Assembly (NCBI GenBank): GCA_017622845.1
Contig: JAGAQJ010000022.1
Span: 1 to 64,000 of the forward strand
From: Lachnospiraceae bacterium
GTDB taxonomy: Bacteria > Bacillota > Clostridia > Lachnospirales > Lachnospiraceae
Length of the DNA stretch: 64,000 bases
Reading direction: 5' to 3'
Shown in pieces: positions 8,423 to 43,907 of the stretch (position 1 is its first letter; every line of letters starts with the position of its first letter). The notes beneath the pieces are model-generated. The model saw only the letters and a program-made list of their open reading frames with translations, searched no databases and was not told the DNA's origin. Position numbers and translations under genes: made by a program.

Positions 8423-8551
8423 TGGGGGATTTGAAAGAGTGCGGGATGTTCTACGAGATGGGTTCCCAACTGGCTGAGGGCTTATAAAAAAATGGAGCAA
8501 AGCGGATTTGAATTTGCAGAACCTTTTGAGGAAACACGCTAAACTTCCTCT

Positions 8552-8656
8552 CGCTGTTCGTCCATGGAATCCTCTTTCTTTACCTGTCCTTCTGCTGACA
8601 CCCTTACGTATCCCAAAACATTTACACTGCTGTTTTTCATGTGATGAACCTCGCCT
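8552..8656 (-). pseudogene. Fragment of a serine recombinase 5' end
   Basis: On the minus strand from ATG 8640 this reads MKNSSVNVLGYVRVSAEGQ and then KKEDSMDEQREE before a stop. It is a diverged copy of the first ~33 codons of the recombinase remnant at 9346-9948 (there MKNNSVNVFGYVRVSTEGQ). The catalytic-Ser region YVRVS is present, but the rest of the gene is missing. Confidence 0.8.
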
Positions 8657-8668
8657 TTCCTCAAAGTT

Positions 8669-8747
8669 GTAACAGTTTGGCCTTTTATGTATTCCTATCT
8701 GCCGCCCTTCGTCCAGGCTAAAATAATCCATAAGGCTGAACTGTTAC
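8669..8747. mobile_element. Family 1 MITE, 79-bp internally deleted copy
   Basis: Starts GTAACAGTTTGGCC and ends GGCTGAACTGTTAC, the two inverted ends of the family (11 of 14 or better), with only about 50 bp of the interior left. Both near-end blocks are retained (TTATGTATTCCTAT and TAAAATAATCC). Flanking octamers TCAAAGTT and CCAAAGCT agree at 6 of 8 positions, possibly a worn target duplication. Confidence 0.7.
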
Positions 8748-8787
8748 CCAAAGCTGAGTCAAAAGCTGAGTCACCCCCTTTTTAAGC

Positions 8788-8816
8788 TTGTTTCAGCTAT
8801 ATTCCTCTGATATAAT
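8788..8816 (+). promoter_or_regulatory. Promoter of the small hydrophobic ORF
   Basis: TTGTTT (8788-8793), 17-base spacer, TATAAT (8811-8816). The predicted RNA would start near GGTGCTACC at 8823 and carry a 5' leader of about 120 bases with a perfect CAGAGGG/CCCTCTG hairpin (8860-8880). Confidence 0.6.
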
Positions 8817-8823
8817 AATTACG

Positions 8824-8854
8824 GTGCTACCAATAACGGGTATGCGGTTAGCCC
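8824..8854 (+). repeat. Left member of inverted repeat flanking the small-ORF locus
   Basis: GTGCTACC and CGGTTAGCCC, separated by 13 bases. The same two blocks, 7 bases apart, occur in inverted orientation at 9093-9117. Each lies just downstream of a promoter that points inward, so both predicted RNAs share their 5' sequence. Confidence 0.7.
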
Positions 8855-8942
8855 TCTTACAGAGGGACTGTGACCCTCTGATTACATAGAAACCTTTTTG
8901 AACTGTCGAAAAGGGAATAAAGTGCGAAAGAGGGTGTTGCCA

Positions 8943-9041
8943 ATGTTGACACTGGAAGGTCTGATAGCAGTAGTCAGTCTTGTACTGACCGCATTCGGAC
9001 TTGGATATGCCATCGGAAGTAATGACAAAACACAAAAATAA
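8943..9041 (+). CDS. 32-residue hydrophobic peptide, candidate type I toxin (holin-like)
   Basis: MLTLEGLIAVVSLVLTAF followed by GLGYAIGSNDKTQK: one membrane-spanning helix (about residues 5-23) and a short polar, charged C-tail. GAGGGTG lies 8-14 bases upstream of the ATG. The stop codon lies inside the left arm of a bidirectional terminator. Size, single helix, long structured leader and convergent antisense promoter are the usual layout of type I toxins of the TxpA/Fst/holin-like kind in Firmicutes. Toxicity is inferred, not shown; it could be another small membrane peptide. Confidence 0.6.
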   Translation: MLTLEGLIAVVSLVLTAFGLGYAIGSNDKTQK

Positions 9042-9076
9042 CCGCCACAGCCTGACAAACTTAGCGGTTATTTTTT
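9037..9076. terminator. Bidirectional terminator between convergent transcripts
   Basis: AATAACCGC (9037-9045) pairs with GCGGTTATT (9064-9072); TTTTAT follows on the plus strand and TTTTTG on the minus strand. It would end both the small-ORF mRNA and the antisense RNA. Confidence 0.8.
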
Positions 9077-9092
9077 ATAGCTAACAATTTGT

Positions 9093-9117
9093 GGGCTAAC
9101 CGTATATTCGGTAGCAC
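9093..9117 (-). repeat. Right member of inverted repeat flanking the small-ORF locus
   Basis: Minus strand: GTGCTACC, 7 bases, CGGTTAGCCC. It is the inverted partner of 8824-8854. Confidence 0.7.
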
Positions 9118-9129
9118 TTCTTTACGTTT

Positions 9130-9159
9130 ATTATAGTATTTGCAGTTAAAGAATGTCAA
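9130..9159 (-). promoter_or_regulatory. Antisense promoter
   Basis: On the minus strand TTGACA (9159-9154), 18-base spacer, TATAAT (9135-9130): both hexamers are perfect consensus. It reads towards the small hydrophobic ORF. Confidence 0.7.
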
Positions 9160-9164
9160 CCTTT

Positions 9165-9345
9165 CTAAAATAAATTCTCCAACAAAATCATTTCCTGCAC
9201 TTTTTCGTCACCGAGTACATGGGAATATAAATCCATAGTCATGCTGATATTGGAATGACCAAGTATTGTTTTCAGGACTTGGGGCTTCATTCCTTTTTGA
9301 ATAGCTCTTGTAGCAAATGCGTGGCGCAGGGTATGACATAAGCTG
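9165..9345 (-). pseudogene. C-terminal remnant of a tyrosine recombinase (phage integrase)
   Basis: In a different minus-strand frame from the serine recombinase that runs into it, this stretch encodes CHTLRHAFATRAIQKGMK, then VLKTILGHSNISMTMDLYSH and a VLGDEKVQEMILLENLF end, stop at 9165-9167. This is the catalytic C-terminus of a tyrosine integrase, with HTLRH, GHS and the LYSHV tyrosine box intact. The N-terminal and core parts are gone; the fragment begins abruptly at the junction near 9345. Confidence 0.88.
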
Positions 9346-9948
9346 TTTTAATTGAAATACCCTTTGTACCGCCTTTGCTTCTTCTGTATGTATGCATAAC
9401 TTCCTGTGACCGTTAGGGCAGTAGTAGCCGAACGGAATGCCGCCCCCTGCATATCCGCCGCCCTTGGCTTTCTGCAACCTGCCGCGTCTGAGCTTTAAAG
9501 TGATTTCCATCGTCTCATATACGTCCAGCACTTCAAACATACTGTTGACAAAGAACTCGTTTGGATTTTGCGTGTAGATAGAGTAGTTTGGTCTGTCAAT
9601 CGCTTTTACATCCACATTATTCTTTTTCAGTTCCCTTTGTATCAATACCTTAGCCATGTCTGACCGCCACATTCTGTTTGTAGTCAGCGTTACAATATAT
9701 TGGATTTTACTTTCCTTTAAACATGCCAGCATATCTAACAGACCGTCGCGCTCAAGACTCATTTCGTCTTCATTGGCTTTTGCTCCGCTGATGCCTTCAT
9801 CTTTATAAAGATGCACCAAGTTGTAGCTGTTATCCTTGCAGTACTTTTCAATTTCTTCGCACTGTTCGTCTATGGAATACCCCTTCTTTACCTGTCCTTC
9901 TGTTGATACCCTTACGTATCCAAATACATTTACACTGTTGTTTTTCAT
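9346..9948 (-). pseudogene. Truncated serine recombinase (N-terminal part)
   Basis: About 200 codons from ATG 9948, with GGAGGT 7 bases upstream. The resolvase domain is intact: VFGYVRVSTEGQ with the catalytic Ser near residue 14, KDEGISGAKA, and TLTTNRMWRSDMAK. The start of the recombinase domain follows (GGGIPFGYYCPNGHRKLC). Large serine recombinases normally run 450-550 residues, so well over half is missing; the frame then passes out of register into a tyrosine integrase remnant. It is most likely inactive, although the dimerising catalytic domain could still be made. Confidence 0.85.
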
Positions 9949-10096
9949 GACATGAACCTCCATTATAAATAATATTTTTATAACAGCAATTCAAATTCCT
10001 GTTGTAAACAGGGTCGAAAACAGATAAACCTTTTGTCTCTCTTTATCAAACCGTATCAGCCTTTCCCAAAAGTTGAGTCAAAAGTTGAGTCAAGCC

Positions 10097-10124
10097 TTGA
10101 CATTCTCCTCAATTCCAGTATAAT
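10097..10124 (+). promoter_or_regulatory. queT promoter
   Basis: TTGACA (10097-10102), 16-base spacer, TATAAT (10119-10124), about 45 bases before the riboswitch. Confidence 0.75.
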
Positions 10125-32442: not shown

Positions 32443-32788
32443 GTAACAGTTCAGCCGTATGGATTATTTTAATCAGGACGAAGGTCGGCAGTCGTATGCC
32501 GCCCTTCTGTGTACTGACAACAGTTCGATTTTATGGTTTCACTGAACAGAAGACGGCAGATAGTATCCTGCAGGGTGCTTGGTGGAGAATGGTGATATTT
32601 CTTTATACGATGATACATGCAACAGGTTGGAGACGGAGGCATGGACGCCGACTCGAGCCGGCGCCGTTTTCATTAGAAAGCCTTGATTCATCGTATTAGG
32701 AAATTCCCATTTGAAACCAATGGCAGCCGGAGGGATACTATCTGCCGTTTTCGTCCGGATAGGAATGCATAAAAGGCTGAACTGTTAC
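32443..32788. mobile_element. Family 1 MITE, full-length copy with 8-bp target duplication
   Basis: Ends are GTAACAGTTCAGCC (32443-32456) and GGCTGAACTGTTAC (32775-32788), perfect 14-bp inverted repeats. ATAATCCG flanks both sides (32435-32442 and 32789-32796), a perfect 8-bp target duplication. The interior has further inverted arms: CGGCAGATAGTATCC (32554-32568) with GGATACTATCTGCCG (32733-32747), and TTATACGATGA with TCATCGTATTA. It has no transposase and would need one in trans. The length of duplication fits families such as ISL3, IS6 or IS256. Confidence 0.85.
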
Positions 32789-42413: not shown

Positions 42414-43907
42414 TTGAAACAGGAGATACCGAATATAAGCTATGAGAGAAGTATGAATCATAATTATCTGATTTTGAGCACCTGTGATTATTTTGGAAAA
42501 AAAGATGCCGGATGCAGGGATTACCGTACAAAAATGCTTTTGGAAAACCAAATTCCGGGCTTGCTGCCCGTGACACACAGACAGATAAATGGGGAGAGCA
42601 GATATTATTATGAGATTAATTCTCTGCAGTCATTAGACAGGCTTTATGATAAAAACGGGCTTGGGTATGATGCGCTTAGAAGGCTGCTGTTTGGATGCGT
42701 AAGCCTGTTTGACAGGCTTGAGGAATACTTGCTCGATGGCTCGCAGATTATCATAAAGCCGGAACTGATTTATATGAATGTGGATAAAATGGAACCGTAT
42801 TTTGTCTGCTATCCTGAATATGAAGGTGATGTGCGGCTCGGCTTTATGGAATTTATTGATATGCTGCTTACCAGGCTTGACCATACAGATGAACAGGCAG
42901 TTATGATTGGGTATCAGGTATACAGATATACCAGAAATCCTAATTATGTCATAAGTGAGGTAGCACGTATCATAGAGTCGGATATTGTAACAATGACAAA
43001 GAAAGAACCAAGTCTGCAGAAGTATTCCGCTGATGAACAAGAGATTTCTTCAACAAAGAAAAGCTGTTATGCTGTATATACAGATAACAGATATATTCAG
43101 GAAGAGGATTTATACTATAAGCCGAAGAGAGAAGAGATTTATGAGGAAGAGGAACAACAGTCAGAAAAAAATAGTCAAAAAACAAAAGCAAAAAATATAG
43201 CCGATTTGGCGGGTGGGACATTCTGTGTCTTTGTATCCTTGTGTGCAGGTATTATTATACTGGGAGCCAGAGTTTTAAAAACCTTTCAGTTAAGTGAAAG
43301 CAATGAGCTGTATTTATATGGGGCGCTGGGTATGGCAATGATGGCAGCTGCTTTGTTTTTTTCCTGTTATATCAAGAAAAGAAAACAGGATAAAGAGTTG
43401 GAAAGGCTGAGAGATAACGGGGATACGGATTGCTGCTGTGATAAGGAACCGCTGGATGAGGAATATGAATATTTCAAAAGCAGAGAATCAGTTCAAAAGA
43501 AGCAGAATATAAAGGAAACAGCGGAAAAAGTGTCTATTAGCAGAAGTGCTTCACATAGAAGTGTTTTACGGGAATCATATGATGATACGGAATGTCTGGG
43601 AGGGCAGAGTGTGGAGGAAAGAGTGCTGTGCGGCAGAATAAATGGAAAGGAAGTCAGCGTTTCTCTGGATAAACTTCCGATGATTGTAGGGAAACTGCCA
43701 AGTGTATCGGATTTTGTTATAAATGACACGGCTGTCAGTAAAATGCATGCACGCTTTGAGGAGCATGATGGAAAAGTTTATGTGTGTGATTTAAACTCAA
43801 CCAACGGAACCGTGCGGAATGGGGTTTTGCTGGGAGTGAATCAGTCTGTAGCGCTGGAACCGGGGGACAGGCTCAGATTTGGCAGAACGTGTTTTACATA
43901 CTGTTAA
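42414..43907 (+). CDS. DUF6382/FHA domain protein
   Basis: A 497-residue protein. Residues 1-190 match the DUF6382 module that accompanies tad clusters (YLILSTCDYFGKKDAG, GYDALRRLLFGCVSLFDRLEEYLL, YPEYEGDVRLGFMEFIDMLL). A linker and two helices follow (AGGTFCVFVSLCAGIIILGA, YLYGALGMAMMAAALFFSCY). The C-terminal FHA domain (about 405-495) has LPMIVGKLPSVSDFVIND, VSKMHARFE and the NSTNGTVRNG loop, so it binds phospho-threonine. The start is TTG 42414, six bases after GGAGG. It suggests Ser/Thr-kinase control of the pilus machine, though no kinase is encoded nearby. Confidence 0.85.
   Translation: MKQEIPNISYERSMNHNYLILSTCDYFGKKDAGCRDYRTKMLLENQIPGLLPVTHRQINGESRYYYEINSLQSLDRLYDKNGLGYDALRRLLFGCVSLFDRLEEYLLDGSQIIIKPELIYMNVDKMEPYFVCYPEYEGDVRLGFMEFIDMLLTRLDHTDEQAVMIGYQVYRYTRNPNYVISEVARIIESDIVTMTKKEPSLQKYSADEQEISSTKKSCYAVYTDNRYIQEEDLYYKPKREEIYEEEEQQSEKNSQKTKAKNIADLAGGTFCVFVSLCAGIIILGARVLKTFQLSESNELYLYGALGMAMMAAALFFSCYIKKRKQDKELERLRDNGDTDCCCDKEPLDEEYEYFKSRESVQKKQNIKETAEKVSISRSASHRSVLRESYDDTECLGGQSVEERVLCGRINGKEVSVSLDKLPMIVGKLPSVSDFVINDTAVSKMHARFEEHDGKVYVCDLNSTNGTVRNGVLLGVNQSVALEPGDRLRFGRTCFTYC

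Follow-up and report, generated by a model that had tools for sequence, protein, structure and literature searches.

In the type I toxin-antitoxin systems TxpA/RatA and BsrG/SR4, the antisense RNAs RatA and SR4 overlap the toxin mRNA at its 3' end. The Fst/par locus of pAD1 combines a membrane peptide of about 33 residues with convergent promoters, a two-way terminator common to both RNAs, a Shine-Dalgarno sequence hidden by leader structure, and repeats present in both RNAs; as described in PMC7472228, these repeats are direct in the DNA, so that toxin mRNA and antitoxin RNA are complementary there, blocking the start codon. For the CD-RCd systems of C. difficile, a small membrane toxin with a charged C-terminus and a convergent antisense RNA overlapping the toxin transcript are reported (PMC6563280, PMC7699646). 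A mapped transcription start for a holin-like toxin on pSOL is given in PMC9045289.

The locus considered here occupies positions 8788–9159 of a 64-kb stretch of DNA from a Lachnospiraceae bacterium (this whole stretch being referred to below as the window). An earlier note on this DNA, made from the letters themselves, had read the locus as a type I toxin-antitoxin system, and the promoters, leader, 32-codon peptide gene, two-way terminator and convergent minus-strand consensus promoter that it described were all confirmed in the sequence. On the plus strand, the predicted toxin promoter TTGTTT-17-TATAAT (8788–8816, with TTGTTT at 8788–8793, a 17-nt spacer and TATAAT at 8811–8816) was read by eye; it is absent from the promoter-scan list and is weaker than its antisense counterpart. 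The 120-nt leader begins with two blocks that were located by repeat search and family alignments, namely block 1, GGTGCTACC (8823–8831), and block 2, GCGGTTAGCCC, which continues into an anti-Shine-Dalgarno TCTT (8844–8858, seen also in folds). There follow a hairpin designated H2 (CAGAGGG-ACTGTGA-CCCTCTG, 8860–8880), for which both folds and A-U/G-C covariation speak, and the Shine-Dalgarno sequence AAGAGGG (8928–8934), which pairs with 8851–8858 in the predicted fold (−41.6 kcal/mol for the leader, z −3.8). The predicted toxin, a hydrophobic single-helix peptide of 32 residues with the sequence MLTLEGLIAVVSLVLTAFGLGYAIGSNDKTQK, is encoded at 8943–9041 (stop codon counted in), as judged from the open reading frame, its relatives and the selection acting on it; the window's own genome holds one copy.

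The first arm of the two-way terminator (9034–9075, from repeats and folds) overlaps the last codons of the peptide and its stop; its two arms, 9034–9045 and 9064–9075, match at 12 of 12 positions, and since the terminator scan accepts loops of up to 8 nt, this terminator, with its loop of 18 nt, was not listed by the scan. On the minus strand lies the predicted antisense (antitoxin) RNA (9030–9118; folds, complementarity and an RNA model), with its own block 1, AGTGCTACC (9110–9118), and block 2, CGGTTAGCCC (9093–9102), again from repeat search and alignments. The promoter scan places ahead of it TTGACA-18-TATAAT (9130–9159, minus strand), which has 12 of 12 consensus bases, although the same 2.2 kb contains another 12/12 site at 10097 and 13 promoter-like sites in all against 4.6 expected.

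The claim that the blocks are shared as inverted repeats was also confirmed, both repeats being exact: GTGCTACC at 8824–8831 and 9110–9117, and CGGTTAGCCC at 8845–8854 and 9093–9102, so that both predicted RNAs carry these two sequences near their 5' ends. The count of CGGTTAGCCC is unremarkable by itself, as its two matches in 64 kb at up to one mismatch (there is no third) compare with 1.32 expected by chance; for GTGCTACC there are three matches against 0.86 expected, the extra one being at 42959. The window by itself is only suggestive; it is the family alignments that lift the locus far above chance. As regards its surroundings, the start of a serine recombinase gene together with its upstream sequence is present twice, flanking the locus (8540–8775 and 9208–10100), and a Resolvase domain was found in the second copy. 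Elsewhere in the window, two TwoAYGGAY RNA motifs score above the Rfam gathering threshold (194–360 and 32580–32719).

How does this arrangement compare with those already described? Predicted convergent RNAs with a shared two-way terminator and, in predicted folds, a leader that hides the Shine-Dalgarno sequence are both found here as in Fst/par. A match to that peptide family is not: no Fst model appeared among the peptide matches when 29, 40 and 40 members were scanned, and unlike Fst the window's peptide is without a PXXXG motif. Nor are there direct repeats giving complementarity near the start codon; in contrast to Fst/par the repeats are inverted, the RNAs are identical at them, and it is identity, not complementarity, that is tracked among relatives. 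In this respect the earlier note, which had contrasted identical with complementary 5' blocks, was right, and the locus would act like a type I system but is not a member of Fst/par. With TxpA/RatA, BsrG/SR4 and CD-RCd it has in common a small membrane toxin with a charged C-terminus and a convergent antisense RNA overlapping the toxin transcript (both predicted here); it differs from them in that the peptide matches no toxin model and in that the antisense RNA is very short and opens with a hairpin whose sequence is identical to the 5' block of the mRNA. It is general features alone that link it to the C. difficile systems, and the antisense RNA model, run against 50,000 of the 50,930 bases of the C. 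difficile phage phiCD27, gave nothing significant (best E 0.51). The putative holin-like toxins of Pfam family Hol_Tox (PF16935) are not matched by the window's peptide; peptides similar to them do occur at certain other loci of this RNA chassis (see below). Rfam searches over the locus gave sub-threshold matches only, none at gathering score; a microRNA-like match (in locus L125) and one to Clostridiales-1 (E 0.06, beside L134) were judged unrelated.

Relatives of the peptide are numerous. In genome_contigs there are 431, and the best 80 of these, which were retrieved, have titles that mostly name Lachnospiraceae or its genera, the few others including Ruminococcaceae, Clostridiaceae and one Gastranaerophilales. 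Matches were found in 112 of 299 Lachnospiraceae genomes at E ≤ 1, of which the weakest, within long open frames, look like chance, and the peptide profile found at least 9 of the 391 genomes of a class-wide sample (up to 20 candidates scored per genome), the matches listed being all from Lachnospiraceae. Copy number varies between genomes, tandem copies occur, some copies lie at contig ends, and 17 viral contigs carry the peptide. The earlier note had regarded recombinase debris as a typical setting for such a locus; this was not supported, as the 20 ORFs scanned in the neighbourhood of 12 randomly chosen relatives comprised one integrase and several housekeeping genes, with seven falling in no Pfam family. 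Within sister pairs, changes at the three codon positions number 173, 67 and 416, and this dominance of the third position, together with a nonsynonymous/synonymous rate ratio of about 0.10 (strong purifying selection), establishes that the ORF is coding. Neither the window's peptide nor other members gave a convincing match in Pfam, NCBIfam, PHROGs or the PDB; the lowest E-values among 40 members were 0.00025 (Proton_antipo_N), 0.0023 (BcsF model) and 0.005, and that for the profile was 0.077.

For comparative work 167 loci were assembled (30 from the family-genome search, 80 from genome_contigs and 57 peptides from further searches), of which 136 had both blocks, 131 had them at the expected distances and 129 also had a short coding sequence; removal of loci at least 95% alike then left 114, so that 53 of the 167 were dropped ahead of the statistics. 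These 114 non-redundant loci have the same anatomy. On the sense side the common layout runs from the promoter through GGTGCTACC-n-CGGTAGG-CGGTTAGYCC, hairpin H2 with the loop ACTGTGA, TTTACATAGAAA, a hairpin H3 and the Shine-Dalgarno sequence to a peptide ending in K-rich codons and a terminator that includes the stop codon, while the opposite strand has GGTGCTACCGATAGACGGTTAGYCC, a linker and the terminator. Conservation of the peptide together with its flanking repeats, which had been named beforehand as a refutation test, was therefore borne out in a large family. On the sense side, 40 of the 114 loci have a 6/6 TATAAT 3–14 nt ahead of the block, compared with 3 of 114 after shuffling, and on the antisense side a −10 motif of 5–6/6 is found in 72 of 113 relatives (23 of 113 when shuffled). 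By a simple rule, the terminator is flanked by T-tracts at either end in 80 of 114. The A-rich codons that close the gene (KTQK, KK) also supply the U-tract of the antisense terminator, a double use that may account for the conserved C-terminus of the peptide. In many close pairs homology spans the locus from promoter to promoter, past both blocks.

Folding of these RNAs gives a consistent, if not uniform, picture. The consensus fold of 24 leaders comprises a hairpin H1, the anti-Shine-Dalgarno:Shine-Dalgarno helix, H2 and H3, with compensatory change in 7 of 20 pairs, and in it the Shine-Dalgarno sequence is paired with the segment downstream of block 2; the antisense RNA has a consensus fold of a 5' hairpin plus the terminator, with 7 of 19 pairs compensated. 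In single-sequence folds of 46 leaders the mean pairing probability of the Shine-Dalgarno sequence exceeds 0.6 in 44, yet it is paired with the anti-Shine-Dalgarno segment (probability >0.5) in only 25, most of the rest pairing it with the 3' arm of H2 instead. A co-change scan made the Shine-Dalgarno base S104 the best partner of the anti-Shine-Dalgarno base S37 (p 1e-4, uncorrected, among 17,578 pairs), and covariation in this helix is slight (excess pairing 0.04). In predicted folds, at all events, the leader hides the Shine-Dalgarno sequence by pairing it.

Some loci carry additional elements. A LexA-like box, defined as at least 8 of the 10 bases of the LexA-box consensus CGAAC-N4-GTTCG, occurs at the toxin promoters of 22 of 114 loci (18 of 2280 shuffles) and at the antisense promoters of 1 of 114 (26 of 2280 shuffles); it is absent from the window's locus, and if real, such boxes in about one-fifth of the aligned loci would link them to DNA damage. 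A pattern search found that H2 is interrupted by some 50 nt of structured sequence (a hairpin, then CGACCGAAGTGAAACGGAGAC-like sequence) in 8 of the 167 loci (L033, L045, L068, L080, L084, L151, L163 and L183), and a ninth case, L167, has the same kind of insert closer to the start codon than H2; it looks as if the RNA fold could accommodate a small mobile hairpin. In 27 of the 114 loci (e.g. L056, L058 and L064) there is a second hairpin, of the GGGCATCTGC...GCAGATGCCC type, immediately upstream of the antisense block, which probably gives a longer antisense RNA.

The RNA parts of the locus reach further than its peptide. A covariance model of the leader matches 31 of 120 Lachnospiraceae genomes, including some (G035, G085, G087, G102 and G104) that have no peptide match. 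Among 14 loci found with it, two encode peptides of the window's type (LIAV), five encode SDYE peptides (MSDYEMLSIVLMILGIVVTILIAYINHTKK and close variants), one a VTY peptide (MVTYDELFQLGLLIVAIIGLVYKLTKK) and four other tiny hydrophobic peptides; one gave no match that could be read, and another lacked a convincing ORF. The antisense RNA model matches 146 of 299 Lachnospiraceae genomes, 81 of 391 in the class sample (13 Lachnospiraceae, 2 from the rest of the order and 66 from the rest of the class) and 18 of 299 in a phylum sample, of which 13 belong to other classes. These figures set a ceiling on the number of true loci: with so short a model the E-values are approximate, some of the weak matches are false, and even a terminator alone can be matched (as on contig C68 of the window's own genome, E 1.4e-6). 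Of four other-class loci that were read, three have a tiny hydrophobic ORF and a stretch of 7–9 nt in common with the leader, one of these ORFs being LIAV-like (MALEFAMALLAFGIACFSLGYTLGKDLNKQK), while one locus (L381) looks false. Under a fixed ORF rule, 60 further loci of the family gave an ORF in 30 (about seven judged spurious) and none in 30, and 40 class-wide matches gave one in 36, some of them doubtful. The peptides found on this chassis include the LIAV, SDYE and VTY types and peptides of 20–25 residues such as MEYVYIIIFMIVFITLIESIKK; profile comparison found nothing to connect LIAV with SDYE and linked LIAV only weakly to VTY (probability 24%). Against the Hol_Tox model, one VTY peptide exceeded the cut-off (26.1 against 23.3 bits), three fell below it and two had no match; these came from two sets of ten chassis relatives, one set with the peptide over the cut-off and two below (21.3 and 18.5 bits), the other with one below (22.1 bits). 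Beside these different peptides the blocks persist in diverged form. The predicted chassis, then, is widespread in many Clostridia and some relatives and carries several dissimilar peptides, one of them Hol_Tox-like.

Several individual loci may be recorded here. The window's own genome encodes, at G000:C38:49725–49799 (about 1400–1670 of L377), a peptide that passes the Pfam cut-off for Hol_Tox; its leader (AGGTGGTAGCCTCC) and the opposite strand downstream of it (AAGTGGTTGACCTCC) share 5'-block-like sequence that is unlike the window's blocks. It also holds (L276/L277, G000:C68:8343–8483) a near copy of the chassis terminator that the antisense model matches on both strands, with no recognisable toxin, possibly a relic. 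Tandem matches to the antisense model, with a tiny ORF, occur in genomes from other families of the class (four within 1.6 kb in L357 of G446, three within 1.0 kb in L358 of G619), and a genome of another class, G893, has thirteen matches, which may represent a different repeat because L381, a locus of the same family, looks false.

Taking all this together, we consider it probable, with some room for doubt, that the locus encodes a type I toxin-antitoxin pair, carried on a widespread RNA chassis whose shared 5' ends co-evolve. The peptide gene is small, hydrophobic in its product and under purifying selection, and as a sequence prediction a cis-encoded antisense RNA with its own promoter overlaps its mRNA; comparison of the sequences shows a conserved, coding locus with promoter motifs at either side, a terminator, a leader fold and the concerted 5'-end identity discussed below. 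In the proposed scheme the plus-strand RNA would encode a 32-residue single-span membrane peptide, its leader would pair the ribosome binding site (mostly with the segment after the shared block), and a short convergent RNA from a strong promoter would end in the same terminator as the toxin mRNA. The earlier note expected pairing between the two RNAs to be limited to the terminator hairpin; this was not supported, the predicted antisense RNA being perfectly complementary to about the last 50 nt of the toxin mRNA, taking in the last codons and the stop as well as the terminator. Given this stretch, silencing through a 3' duplex is the natural reading: the duplex would block the toxin mRNA or trigger its decay, as in TxpA/RatA and BsrG/SR4. 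The RNA facing the tiny predicted membrane toxin probably silences it, and the type I interpretation holds up as a prediction, since the peptide and the blocks have been retained jointly across a large family; transcription and toxicity are predicted in the same sense.

There remains the matter of the two 5' ends. Using a tree of the coding sequence plus the leader outside the blocks, 49 independent sister pairs were found to contain 35 concerted in-register changes (the same two bases in both RNAs), whereas permutation of antisense ends among pairs of similar distance averaged 8.5 and never exceeded 24 in 2000 rounds, and shifting the register by 1–4 gave 0 to 9. The coupling is less than strict: of 924 position pairs, 49 had changed in both RNAs, 73 in the sense RNA alone and 49 in the antisense RNA alone. 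At four of the 14 sense positions tested (S12, S13, S32 and S35), it is the antisense base in register that co-changes best out of up to 311 columns; the remaining ten have other best partners. Over 18 positions the excess identity is 1.90, against an excess complementarity of the blocks of 0.07–0.16, and it is seen also at positions unpaired in predicted folds. In a set of 88 loci of all peptide types (40 sampled from the 114, 21 of 30 family-wide and 27 class-wide, the latter two groups picked by a Shine-Dalgarno score of at least 5), an antisense 5' end has in common with the leader of its own locus a longest stretch of, on average, 8.6 nt, compared with 6.6 nt for other loci's leaders (6.1 to 7.3 within group) and 5.6 nt for shuffled ends. 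These comparisons indicate that identity of the 5' ends is itself maintained in evolution.

Several candidate roles for this identity were rejected or gave no signal. It was initially expected that the antisense block would act in trans on the Shine-Dalgarno sequence with cognate specificity; this is not supported, as own-locus duplex energies are no better than cross-locus ones (mean rank 0.496 over the 88 loci), and the leader itself has hardly any cognate preference for the Shine-Dalgarno sequence (mean rank 0.449 in the same set). When the 5' part of the antisense RNA was scanned for duplexes with six regions of the mRNA in up to 114 loci, none came out ahead (mean z 0.12 to −0.53). The idea that block 2 pairs within the coding region (at CTGACCGCAT in the window) was discarded, the codons there varying among relatives. 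For an exchange of hairpin arms between the RNAs, complementarity is high and tracking is hardly above chance, with columns that vary little. Pairing of mRNA block 2 (GGCGGUUA) with a terminator arm (UAACCGCC) is compatible with the variation in stop codons (loci with C in block 2 have TAG in 14 of 14; those with T have TAA in 51, TAG in 44 and TGA in 4, uncorrected for kinship), which wobble pairs make uninformative. The role readings that remain are competition with the mRNA's own 5' strand, pairing with a terminator arm, a common protein, and mutational homogenisation.

The last of these would make the identity a by-product: template switching or gene conversion between inverted repeats, here some 240 nt apart, would keep the blocks alike without any function, and the excess of identity over complementarity, extending to unpaired positions, speaks for it. 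Against it, the stretch between the blocks stays different (...GGTAGG in the sense RNA, mostly GATAGA in the antisense), so that conversion tracts would need to be shorter than about 10 nt, and the blocks persist, diverged, beside different peptides; we regard this account as unlikely, if by no means negligible. Alternatively, the blocks could mark the ends of a mobile element as its terminal inverted repeats, or serve as DNA operators bound by one shared regulator. Their position near both predicted transcription starts would then be explained, as would the several copies at contig ends, where repeated elements tend to fall. That explanation seems very doubtful, however: homology in many close pairs passes the blocks and continues through both promoters, the distance from block to promoter varies because of the extra upstream hairpin in 27 of 114 loci, and compensatory pairs in the antisense hairpin point to RNA.

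A different objection concerns the peptide, which could be a small regulatory or signalling membrane peptide under cis-antisense RNA control rather than a toxin. The weak similarities found in Pfam point to membrane segments that are non-toxic (Proton_antipo_N in 7 of 40 members, best E 0.00025; BcsF in 11 of 40, best E 0.005), and several relatives adjoin housekeeping genes; but the same chassis bears Hol_Tox-like peptides and several dissimilar tiny helices, and the variable copy number, tandem copies and 17 viral contigs also weigh against it, so that we think it rather improbable.

Returning to the type I interpretation, a possible reading of the matched ends, held tentatively and at somewhat less than even confidence, is that the antitoxin RNA copies the 5' end of the toxin mRNA, the matched ends forming a locus-specific identity code on a widespread chassis with interchangeable toxins. 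The antitoxin's copy might, for example, compete with or replace the mRNA 5' strand in the switch that hides the Shine-Dalgarno sequence, and such a code would keep paralogous pairs within one genome apart; any role of the identical ends is, of course, a prediction. A description of a layout with identical 5' ends was not found in the literature searched, which left most subscription papers outside, and searches with peptide strings found no paper.

To our knowledge, few type I systems have been described in gut Clostridia outside C. difficile. The recurrence of this layout in many gut Clostridia with several different toxins suggests a widespread toxin switch and, if that is true, a single RNA architecture governs a large and unfamiliar set of toxin-antitoxin pairs in these bacteria, departing from Fst/par with its complementary repeats in toxin mRNA and antitoxin. 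Toxins would then have been swapped beneath a conserved regulator, and the family would offer a direct way to ask what two identical RNA ends do for one another.
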